A stretch of DNA of 64,000 bases from Streptococcus sp. 1643 (GTDB lineage Bacteria > Bacillota > Bacilli > Lactobacillales > Streptococcaceae). The first letter of the stretch is position 1. Every line of letters begins with the position of its first letter. This document shows positions 5,713 to 61,762 of this stretch, piece by piece. The position numbers were made by a program, and so were the translations under genes. The notes under the pieces were generated by a model. That model worked only from the letters and a program-made list of their open reading frames with translations, was not told the DNA's origin and did no database searches. The stretch lies in contig NZ_CP040231.1 of the NCBI RefSeq assembly GCF_006228325.1, positions 1,127,001 to 1,191,000 on the forward strand, written 5' to 3'.

Positions 5713-5988
5713 TTATTTAACAGCGTCTTTAAGAGCTTTACCAGCTTTGAATGCTGGAACTTTAGAAGCTGCGATTTTGATTTCTTTACCAGTTTGTGGG
5801 TTGCGACCTTTACGTGCAGCACGCTCACGAACTTCAAAGTTACCGAAACCGATCAATTGAACTTTTTCACCAGCTGCAAGGTATTCAGTTACTGCTGCAA
5901 ATACAGCGTCAACTGCTGCTGCTGAATCTTTCTTAGTCAATTCTGTAGCTTCTGCTACTTTAGCGATCAAATCTTGTTTGTTTGCCAT
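5713..5988 (-). CDS. hup: Histone-like DNA-binding protein HU
   Basis: 91-aa basic protein, the full HU fold. It contains the family signature [18 protein letters not shown], which forms the DNA-embracing arms. It bends DNA, compacts the nucleoid and assists replication and recombination. HU is essential in streptococci, which have a single copy. GGAGG site 8 nt before ATG, own promoter and terminator. Confidence 0.97.
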
Positions 5989-6028
5989 GTTAACAAATCC
6001 TCCAAATAATTTCTAATTAACAAATATA

Positions 6029-6057
6029 ATCATATCCTAAAATCGGCTATAGGTCAA
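6029..6057 (-). promoter_or_regulatory. HU promoter
   Basis: -35 TTGACC (6052-6057), 17-bp spacer, -10 TATGAT (6029-6034) on the minus strand. Confidence 0.75.
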
Positions 6058-6095
6058 GTCAAAAACACTATTTCGAACATTTTTTCTCTATTTTT

Positions 6096-6932
6096 TTAGG
6101 AATTGTAGCGAATTAGAATCGCCCAAGCATTCTCTCCAGTATGAGTTTGAATAATAGAGCCAGTTTCCAATACAGAGATTGGCTTCTCAACATAAGGTTG
6201 CAATAATGCCTTCATCTCATTCGCCCATTCGTTCGTTCCAGCATAGGAAATTCCAATTTCTGCAACTGATTTTTTGGAAAGCGTCTCGGTTAATTCCTCA
6301 AGCCACTTTTTGAACGTTTTCGCTCCACGTCCTTTGACGATTGGTTGAAGTTCGTGGTTTTTCATCTGCATTACTACACGAATGTTCAAGAGTGAGCTTA
6401 GTAATCCTGTCACACGTCCAATACGACCACCCTTAACTAAGTTTTCTAGCGTCGAAACACCGATATAGAGTTCTGTATGATTTTTGACGTCCTCTACATG
6501 AGCTAAGATCGTTTCTAAATCTTTACCTTCTTTAGCAAGTTTTGCGGCTTCAACAACTTGGAACTTCATCGCTTGATCTGTAAAGGAACTATCAATAACT
6601 GTTACATCAGCAGTTGAGAGGCTGGCCCCTTGGCGAGCAGCTTCCACAGTTCCAGACAAGGCATGGGACATGTGAATGGCGATAATTTGACTACCATCTT
6701 TACCTAGTTCTTCAAATACCTCAGCAAATACTCCTACAGGTGGCTGGCTTGTTTTAGGAAGATTCTTACTTTGTTGCATAAGATGAAGGAATTCTCCCTC
6801 TTTCAAATCTGCATCCGAATAAAGCACACTATCAATCATAACTGATAGAGGGACAACAGTGATATTTAATTCTTTAACTACTTCTGGTTCGATAGTAACA
6901 GAAGAGTCCGTTACAATTTTTACTTGTGTCAT
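6096..6932 (-). CDS. DegV-family fatty-acid-binding protein (FakB type)
   Basis: 278 aa, normal for the family. N-terminal VTDSS (residues 7-11) and the SQPPVGVF segment are standard DegV landmarks around the bound fatty acid. In Firmicutes such proteins (FakB) present fatty acids to the kinase FakA so that host lipids enter phospholipid synthesis. Which chain type this paralogue binds cannot be told. An extended -10 (TGA-TATAAT) lies about 45 nt upstream. The ribosome site is weak. No clear terminator before the HU promoter. Confidence 0.85.
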
Positions 6933-7046: not shown

Positions 7047-7073
7047 CTATCTATAGAAAAGTGAGGAACAGCC

Positions 7074-7922
7074 ATGATTCGAAAACTTCAACCGATTATC
7101 ACCATTATTCTTGGAGCTGCTATCTATGCCTTCGGTCTTACCTACTTTGTTGTTCCTTATCATTTATTTGAGGGAGGGGCGACAGGTATTACCTTGATTA
7201 CCTACTACCTTTTTAAGATTCCTGTCTCATTGATGAACCTCTTGATTAATATCCCTTTATTTATCCTGGCTTGGAAAATATTTGGACCTAAGACCCTCTA
7301 CTCCAGCCTTCTTGGATCTATTTCACTTTCCGTTTGGCTAGCAATTTTTGAGCGTATTCCTTTGCACATCGACTTGCAAGGTGATCTCATCATTGTTGCT
7401 TTAGTCTCAGGAGTCTTACTGGGGGTTGGTTTAGGGATTATCTTTAATGCTGGTGGAACCACTGGTGGCTCTGATATCGTTGCCCGTATCCTCAACAAAT
7501 ACACTAATATTTCGATTGGGAAATTGCTCTTTGGGATTGACTTTTTTATCCTAATGTTGATTTTGATTATCTTCCAGGACCTTCGTCTAGTTACCTATAC
7601 CCTCTTGTTTGACTTTATCATCGCTCGTGTTATCGACTTGATAGGCGAAGGAGGTTATGGTGGTAAAGGATTTATGATTATTACCCAATATCCTGATCAA
7701 TTGGCCAAAGAGATTAACGATGAACTCGGACGTGGCGTTACCTTTATATCTGGTCAAGGATACTACAGCAAAAAGGATTTAAAAATTATCTACTGTATCG
7801 TCGGTCGAAACGAAATCGTTAAAATGAAAGATATGATTCACAAAATTGATCCTCAAGCCTTTATCACCATCACTGAGGCTCATGAAATTCTGGGTGAAGG
7901 ATTTACTTATGTGAAAGAATAA
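7074..7922 (+). CDS. YitT/DUF2179 family membrane protein
   Basis: 282 aa: about five to six membrane helices (residues 8-200) with the family's G-G-x-T-G repeats (F-E-G-G-A-T-G-I-T and N-A-G-G-T-T-G-G-S), then a cytoplasmic DUF2179 domain (about 205-275). Widespread in Firmicutes, often in several copies, with no firm biochemical function. Single gene, convergent with the permease gene; the stop codon sits inside their shared palindromic terminator. Confidence 0.88.
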   Translation: MIRKLQPIITIILGAAIYAFGLTYFVVPYHLFEGGATGITLITYYLFKIPVSLMNLLINIPLFILAWKIFGPKTLYSSLLGSISLSVWLAIFERIPLHIDLQGDLIIVALVSGVLLGVGLGIIFNAGGTTGGSDIVARILNKYTNISIGKLLFGIDFFILMLILIIFQDLRLVTYTLLFDFIIARVIDLIGEGGYGGKGFMIITQYPDQLAKEINDELGRGVTFISGQGYYSKKDLKIIYCIVGRNEIVKMKDMIHKIDPQAFITITEAHEILGEGFTYVKE

Positions 7923-10139: not shown

Positions 10140-11552
10140 TTATCCGACAGAACCTTCCATTTCATAGCTAATCAAGCGGTTCAGCTCAACTGCATATTCC
10201 ATTGGTAGCTCTTTAGTGAAGGGTTCGACAAATCCCATGACAATCATCTCGGTTGCCTCAGATTCTGACAATCCACGACTCATGAGATAGTAGAGTTGTT
10301 CCTCTGAAATCTTAGATACCTTGGCCTCGTGTTCCAAAGCAACTTGCGAGTTGTGAATTTCATTAAACGGAATGGTATCTGACGCTGATAAGTCATCCAT
10401 GATAATGGTATCACACTCGATGTGAGAAACAGATTTCTTAGAGTTCTTGTTAAAGGTTACTTGTCCACGATAGTCCACCTTTCCTCCGCCTTTAGCAATG
10501 GATTTAGACACGATAGACGAGCTTGTATGTGGAGCGTTGTGGATCATCTTGGCACCCGTATCTTGGTGTTGCCCTGCATTGGCAAAGGCGATAGAGAGCA
10601 TGGTTCCACGCGCTCCTTCTCCATCAAGGTAAACAGACGGGTATTTCATGGTTGTTTTAGCACCCAAGTTACCATCAATCCACTCAACAGTCGCATCTTT
10701 CAAAGCTTTGGCACGTTTTGTTACCAAGTTATAGACATTATCAGACCAGTTTTGGATGGTTGTATAACGCATATAAGCTCCGTCCAAAGCGAAAATTTCT
10801 ACAATGGCAGCGTGCAAGCTGTTACTTGAATAAGTTGGCGCTGTACAGCCTTCTACGTAGTGGACGCTTGCTCCTTCATCGACAATAATCAAGGTACGTT
10901 CGAACTGACCTGTATTTTCGTTGTTGATACGGAAGTAGGTTTGAAGCGGAATATCTACCTTGACACCTTTTGGTACGTAGATAAATGTTCCACCTGACCA
11001 TACTGCTGAGTTGAGGGCAGCCAACTTGTTATCTGTCGGCGGTACCAACTTGGCAAAGTATTGTTTAAATAAGTCTGGGTATTCCTTGAGGGCAGAATCC
11101 GTATCTGTAAAGATAATCCCCAATTTCTGGAACTCTTCCTTCATGTTGTGGTAAACCACTTCTGACTCGTACTGGGCAGAGGCACCGGCTAGATAAGCAC
11201 GCTCAGCTTCTGGAATCCCGATACGTTCAAAGGTTTCTTTGATTTTTTCAGGAACTTCGTCCCATGAACGGGCAGGTTTATCAGAAGGTTTTTGGTAGTA
11301 GATCAAATCATCAAAGTCAATCTCTGACAAGTCTGCTCCCCAGGTTTGCATAGGCATTTTTTTGAAGGTTTCATAAGACTTCAAACGGAATTCTAACATC
11401 CACTCAGGTTCTCCCTTAGCAGCTGATAATTCGCGAATGACTTCTTCGTTCAATCCTTTTCCTGTCGATAGGACAGGCTCTACATCGTCATGGAAACCAA
11501 ATTTATATTCACCAAGGTCAATTGGTTTTGGTTCTACTCTTTCTTCAGCCAT
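10140..11552 (-). CDS. sufB: Fe-S cluster scaffold subunit SufB
   Basis: 470 aa from the ATG with an AAAGGA site (M-A-E-E-R-V-E-P). An upstream in-frame start (to 11597) lacks a good site and is not the family N-terminus. With SufC and SufD it forms the SufBC2D scaffold on which Fe-S clusters are built from SufS/SufU sulfur. Residues expected in the core are present (conserved Cys in VEGCTAP, and the C-terminal beta-helix region ending [10 protein letters not shown]). Last of the five canonical suf genes, in the Gram-positive order C-D-S-U-B. Confidence 0.96.
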
Positions 11553-11609
11553 AATATCCTTTCTTTCATTCTTCATTTCTACTGATTCGTAAGACAAAAG
11601 AAACTTGTC

Positions 11610-14536
<2,927 letters not shown>

Positions 14537-59637: not shown

Positions 59638-61080
<1,443 letters not shown>

Positions 61081-61108
61081 TTAGTCAATACATCCTATCG
61101 GAGGACAA

Positions 61109-61597
61109 ATGATGAACTTACGGCCAATGGAAGTAAAAGACAATCCAGCTGTAGCACAACTCATTCGAGCTAGCCTTGAAGAATTCGGGCTTGACAAACC
61201 AGGAACTGTCTACTTTGATTCTCATCTAGATCATTTGGCCGACTATTATCAACAGCAAGAGAGAGCAGCTTACTTTGTTCTGGAAGATGAAGATCAGCTG
61301 GTAGGCTGTGGTGGCTTTGCACCAGTGTCCGATAAGATTGCTGAATTACAAAAACTGTATGTCACTAAAAACAGTCGTGGCAAAGGTTATTCCAGTAGGT
61401 TGATAAAGCGCATATTCCAGGAAGCCCGTCTAGCTGGTTATGAACAGCTTTATCTAGAAACCTCTACTGAGCTGGTTACGGCTGTGGCCATCTATCAACA
61501 CTATGGTTTTACAGCATTGCAACAACCACTTTCTAACGCCGCCGGCCACCCAGCTATGAATATCTGGATGATAAAATCTCTCTCATCAGGTGAATAG
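61109..61597 (+). CDS. GNAT-family N-acetyltransferase
   Basis: 162 aa. GNAT fold with acetyl-CoA loop K-N-S-R-G-K-G-Y-S-S (Q/R-x-x-G-x-G/A variant) and the C-terminal I-Y-Q-H-Y-G-F motif. Substrate unknown. GGAGG site; a second ATG at 61112 is equally placed. Sits 28 nt after gdhA and is followed by a decayed copy of the gdhA 3' end, so it appears to be inserted within the gdhA transcript. Confidence 0.87.
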   Translation: MMNLRPMEVKDNPAVAQLIRASLEEFGLDKPGTVYFDSHLDHLADYYQQQERAAYFVLEDEDQLVGCGGFAPVSDKIAELQKLYVTKNSRGKGYSSRLIKRIFQEARLAGYEQLYLETSTELVTAVAIYQHYGFTALQQPLSNAAGHPAMNIWMIKSLSSGE

Positions 61598-61612
61598 ATG
61601 GCAGTATACTAT

Positions 61613-61705
61613 GGTCGACTTGAGGACATCAGTATCAAGCTCCTCAAGACAGCTAAAACAACTTTTAAAAATGTAGCCAAGGCTATGATAGTAAAGGTAT
61701 TGTTT
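61613..61705 (+). pseudogene. Degenerate 3'-end fragment of gdhA
   Basis: Reads G-R-L-E-D-I...T-A-K-T-T-F-K-N-V-A-K-A-M-I, against G-R-L-K-D-I...T-A-K-T-T[18-residue gap]F-E-N-V-A-N-A-M-I at the end of intact GdhA. Exact DNA matches include ACAGCTAAAACAACT and AAGGTATTGTTT. It carries a 54-nt in-frame deletion, a 1-nt deletion near the end and loss of the TAA stop. The original terminator follows it. Confidence 0.88.
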
Positions 61706-61724
61706 CAGCACTATCACACTAGAA

Positions 61725-61762
61725 TAAATCCGACTGCTTATAAAAGCAGCCGGATTTTTATA
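61725..61762. terminator. Terminator of gdhA/GNAT, bidirectional
   Basis: AATCCG-a-CTGCTT/AAGCAG-c-CGGATT stem with T-run on the plus strand; also overlaps the stop of the convergent EXLDI gene. Confidence 0.88.

Follow-up and report, generated by a model that had tools for sequence, protein, structure and literature searches.

Gene content at the gdhA locus

The window, by which we mean the whole 64,000-nucleotide stretch of Streptococcus sp. 1643 DNA that we analysed, belongs to a streptococcal genome of 1.9 Mb. Its gdhA locus has the following layout:

59728–61080, + strand: gdhA, NADP-specific glutamate dehydrogenase, intact; proposed left homology arm (NF006929, 750 bits against a cut-off of 536; Pfam ELFV_dehydrog)
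61081–61108, + strand: 28-nt spacer with GGAGG and without a visible terminator (from sequence; fold z −0.03)
61109–61597, + strand: GNAT-family N-acetyltransferase, 162 aa (PF00583)
61598–61610, + strand: junction after the GNAT stop codon, recognisable in 43 of 43 copies, with 17 spellings (sequence comparison)
61611–61705, + strand: what is left of a gdhA 3' end (remnant) after deletions of 54 nt and 1 nt and loss of the stop; proposed right homology arm (alignment; relatives)
~61726–61757, + strand: terminator hairpin 3' of the remnant (−16 kcal/mol, z −5.92), closely similar to a hairpin directly after gdhA in locus L063

The GNAT open reading frame (ORF) starts 28 nt past the gdhA stop codon (61080), with GGAGG ahead of its start. 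An earlier reading of the letters by themselves, here called the sequence-only reading, had placed the GNAT gene after intact gdhA with no terminator between them and a terminator behind the remnant. Both statements agree with our results: positions 61078–61120 folded no better than shuffled sequence, and the hairpin lies past the remnant. A terminator scan also gave no terminator-like site in the gdhA–GNAT gap, which is weak evidence from a scan that returned two sites in the region against 3.0 expected.

The GNAT protein scored 61.6 bits with PF00583, above the curated cut-off of 20.7, but none of the NCBIfam profiles reached its cut-off for this protein, and relatives by sequence in the PDB were weak (best E 1.8e-07). 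Further homologs were 39–67% identical, and no full-length homologs of 67% to 85% identity occurred among the matches listed (E limits 1e-20 and 1e-30). A donor search across 20 loci with diverged homologs (L104–L123, 6–7 kb each) found none with gdhA in the stretch; no donor was found. In the five of these loci with neighbours listed, the GNAT gene follows an ATPase gene, which we take to be an ABC-F gene, with presumably transporter-like genes nearby. Carriage by phages or plasmids was considered and set aside: three phage and 79 plasmid records match the protein, some of the plasmid matches labelled yjgM, and all are below 60% identity. We found no paper on a gdhA–GNAT locus in a literature search of titles and abstract openings.

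A gdhA-tail remnant behind the GNAT gene

At 61611–61705, the gdhA 3' end is present a second time in decayed form. The gapped alignment of this copy with the intact end scored 43.7, clearly above shuffled sequence (0 of 1000 shuffles reached it; maximum 19.3) and above real control stretches of the window (n = 1952; maximum 20.4). The sequence-only reading had recognised the end of the GdhA C-terminus here, to be checked against shuffled sequence, and the alignment bears it out in detail: it holds the 54-nt deletion, the 1-nt frameshifting deletion, the lost stop (gdhA TAA now TCA) and the exact matches of 15 nt (ACAGCTAAAACAACT) and 12 nt (AAGGTATTGTTT), differing only in its start, which that reading had put at 61613.

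A search for other gene-end duplicates covered the window (65 ORFs). Matches within 6 kb downstream at E 1e-3 were found for 3 of 65 ORF tails and for 0 of 65 shuffled tails. The gdhA tail was the only one of the 65 with two collinear matches near its own end; the two others had single short matches. The reverse search, with ORF heads against upstream sequence, gave matches for 3 of 65, one of them the remnant ORF matching gdhA. Lone short gene-tail repeats within 6 kb downstream were seen for 13274–14536 and 10140–11597 on the minus strand (24 nt at 96% and 37 nt at 78%).

Constraint on the remnant is much weaker than on gdhA. Its dN/dS was 0.42 in nine sanguinis-like copies and 0.21 in all usable full remnants (a set that leaves out L011, L020, L050 and L052), compared with 0.02–0.03 in intact gdhA tails.

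Distribution and remnant forms across the genus

GNAT genes whose products are at least 89% identical were present in 42 of 284 genomes of the genus, as 43 copies. One genome, G230, has two, with the match to its second copy covering residues 1–127 only. All 43 copies have a gdhA 3' end before them and a gdhA-tail remnant after them. Loci with GNAT among the 25 named loci looked at include S. oralis, S. sanguinis, S. cristatus, S. mitis, S. gordonii DD07, S. pseudopneumoniae 843 and S. hohhotensis, and S. oralis BCC10 carries an identical GNAT protein.

The junction after the GNAT stop codon was recognisably alike in every copy, which points to one origin. The remnant behind it occurs in three forms: 19 copies have about 150 nt, L052 among them with an insertion, 15 lack the 54 nt that are deleted in the window, and nine have the last ~40 nt only. 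Of the 34 remnants with their 5' part retained, 25 have TCCTC at positions 30–34, compared with none of 77 intact gdhA tails. For these comparisons, L124 was left out of the gdhA-tail set because its alignment stopped short of the stop codon, L052 was left out of the tail comparison and distances, and the automatic remnant end was wrong in L020, L050 and L052. With a shared junction in 42 genomes and the window's own deleted form in 15 copies, the insertion is not local to this strain; in this respect the history as told by the sequence-only reading is not supported.

Downstream contexts of the remnant

The remnant ends at the old gdhA stop or within a few nucleotides of it. We clustered the 90 nt past this point by single linkage at a score threshold of 32 (3000 shuffled pairs peaked at 19.5) and found four contexts: C1, which contains the window's terminator, in 23 of 43 copies, C2 in 15, C3 in four and C4 in one. 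The same stretch after intact gdhA was assigned in 87 GNAT-free loci, picked from the matches listed, and not at random, out of ~178 matching genomes without a close GNAT. Here C1 occurred once, C2 46 times, C3 seven times and C4 not at all, with the other 33 loci in nine further clusters. The sequence-only reading had expected gdhA to run straight into the window's terminator in strains lacking the GNAT gene. This is the case in G076 (L063), where intact gdhA leads directly into a flank with which the remnant is contiguous elsewhere, but this is the single instance among the 87 loci.

Remnant forms and contexts were combined in nine of twelve possible ways. Full remnants were followed by C1 in 12 copies, C2 in four, C3 in two and C4 in one; the 54-nt-deleted form by C1 in eight, C2 in five and C3 in two; and the short form by C1 in three and C2 in six. 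The window's 54-nt deletion thus lies beside three of the four contexts, each beginning at the old gdhA stop. Since one deletion breakpoint beside three contexts needs recombination close to the deletion, these sequences indicate that recombination has taken place near the remnant.

We also observed an insert of ~1.9 kb (insert X; L040 2783–4448 and L035 3274–4960, oriented) between gdhA or the remnant and the orf129 side, in genomes with and without GNAT. Its genes are, we assume, TetR-like and alcohol-dehydrogenase-like. In L048 (G128), extra sequence interrupts each of gdhA, orf129 and orf300.

Allele types and divergence

A mosaic pattern in gdhA of named relatives (16 loci) bears on a homologous join at one end. 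In the bin at 60850, identity to the window was 92–94% in SK1, SK49 and KO16 versus 87–88% in SK355, 2908 and BCC04. Among the alignment rows listed, S. sanguinis-like remnants were of a GGCAAAGACTA-like type, and the intact tails were of that type in some genomes and of the mitis type in others. A search for donor and recipient alleles along gdhA, suggested by the sequence-only reading, therefore succeeded for several S. sanguinis-like genomes, in which the intact tail beside GNAT and the remnant differ in allele type. The last 39 nt of the window's own remnant singled out no one resident allele.

The remnant of L057 looks mosaic from its edit distances. Its 5' 52 nt differ by one to two edits from the decayed remnants in L004, L007, L048 and L035 and by 11 from any intact tail, and its last 39 nt differ by two edits from an intact tail. 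The strain's own gdhA is matched exactly by the last 39 nt in L060 and L061, which gene conversion explains equally well.

GNAT dS to the window was 0.02–0.32 across the 29 GNAT-bearing loci listed. It was lower than gdhA dS in 17 rows (including all eight sanguinis-like ones), equal in two and higher in ten, so the least diverged part is not GNAT throughout. GNAT dN was 0–0.055, from which the gene looks maintained. Identity to the window in S. cristatus A53 and A52 and S. gordonii DD07 and DD10 was 74–82% in pyrD bins and 90–97% in gdhA bins (82% in the first bin of DD10). Four of the 15 GNAT-bearing loci that include pyrD gave no usable pyrD dS, and GNAT dS in these was 0.20–0.32.

These values bear on whether GNAT was inherited vertically from a common ancestor, with contexts changed later by ordinary rearrangement and the remnant playing no role in transfer. 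Such a history would accommodate the junction common to all copies, the presence of GNAT in all 12 genomes G185–G196 and the 12 of 29 rows in which GNAT dS is not below gdhA dS. We consider it unlikely, given the GNAT dS in the four loci without usable pyrD dS and the single 54-nt deletion joined to three contexts at the old gdhA stop.

Proposed origin and spread of the GNAT gene

We think it likely that one old GNAT insertion left gdhA-tail debris and that the gene then spread laterally by homologous recombination, with gdhA as the left arm and the remnant as the right arm. In a single, ancient founding event, GNAT would have come to lie between gdhA and its terminator, with the final ~150 nt of gdhA repeated behind it. 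Judging from general knowledge and from the papers cited below, transformation is the likely route here: incoming DNA may have paired with gdhA on one side and been joined without homology to the resident gdhA tail on the other, that is, by homology-facilitated illegitimate recombination. The history offered by the sequence-only reading, in which gdhA–GNAT DNA recombined in gdhA and left the resident 3' end as debris, fits this founding event but not an event in this strain.

Because gdhA sequence lies on both sides of GNAT, DNA carrying the gene could later enter by homologous recombination. With gdhA as the site of the left crossover and the remnant as that of the right one, such DNA could pass into other gdhA-bearing streptococci, whatever lies downstream. 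GNAT would then sit before the recipient's own terminator and would probably be expressed from the gdhA promoter. Deletion has caused the remnant to decay in the lineage of the window.

Several observations count against this proposal. C1 and C2 share orf129 downstream, so that a switch between them could use a crossover to the right of insert X, and C4 had no GNAT-free counterpart among the 87 loci. The nearest GNAT-free tail often comes from a different context, and some remnant arms are just ~40 nt. The last 99 nt of L057 are eight edits from any intact tail (L011 has no such value), so that part is not pristine.

Three loci show another event of this general type. In each, downstream orf300 is joined to gdhA at nt ~1033 and a gdhA tail comes next; past that tail, L034 has GNAT with C3, and L036 and L043 have a different flank. 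The joins, each with a second trapped gdhA tail and with differing right ends, are at (oriented):

L034, ~7050–7400: orf300–gdhA join
L036, ~6490–6840: orf300–gdhA join
L043, ~5896–6240: orf300–gdhA join

By inspection, orf300 and the window's gdhA share AAGGTGCTAA near this join, where homology-facilitated illegitimate recombination would call for 3–10 bp of microhomology. Tandem duplication of the gdhA 3' end might instead have come first, with GNAT entering between the copies later. Transformation can create partial duplications in pneumococcus (PMC3784515), but a bare duplicated tail without cargo was not seen in the loci tabulated (which leave out L125–L143), and the GNAT-less extra tails in L036 and L043 come after orf300; this order of events seems improbable to us. 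It is extremely improbable that the remnant persists because it is translated, as a small ORF coupled to GNAT. An ATG directly follows the GNAT stop in 41 of 43 copies, and among the 19 full forms 10 can be read as a 54-aa ORF and one further as 56 aa, but constraint is far weaker than in intact tails, and the window's form no longer has the original frame at its end.

Returning to a single insertion followed by lateral spread, we are evenly divided on a broader reading, in which a partial 3'-end duplicate of a housekeeping gene serves as a ready-made right arm. A lone gene would thereby become a cassette that can do without its own recombinase and settle behind that housekeeping gene in any competent relative, ahead of the local terminator. 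If so, the larger stretch up to orf300 in L034, L036 and L043 would make up another such cassette.

Relation to known systems

The minimal mobile element of Neisseria consists of cargo between core genes that is swapped by homologous recombination (PMC2784325). Like it, the gdhA locus has variable cargo flanked by conserved genes (GNAT is present or absent behind gdhA, with four contexts). Exchange by homologous recombination may apply here as well, but the left flank is gdhA and the right flank is a gdhA remnant, not a second gene. Both arms would therefore come from one gene, one of them as a partial duplicate, and downstream synteny would not be needed.

Homology-facilitated illegitimate recombination is reported for transformation of S. 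pneumoniae, with a homologous join at one end and an illegitimate one at the other (PMC3240628). As described there it is a single event, whereas the product at gdhA appears to have spread afterwards. Pneumococcal merodiploids resemble the proposed history in being partial duplications made through transformation. They differ in spanning ~100–900 kb and in depending on pre-existing repeats, and the first-characterised one was called unstable (PMC3784515).

If the proposed history is true, one imprecise transformation event can leave behind a scar through which later transfers become precise and no longer depend on the gene order downstream. It would also warn against reading a shared function into a gene's position next to gdhA, since that position may reflect the gene's vehicle.
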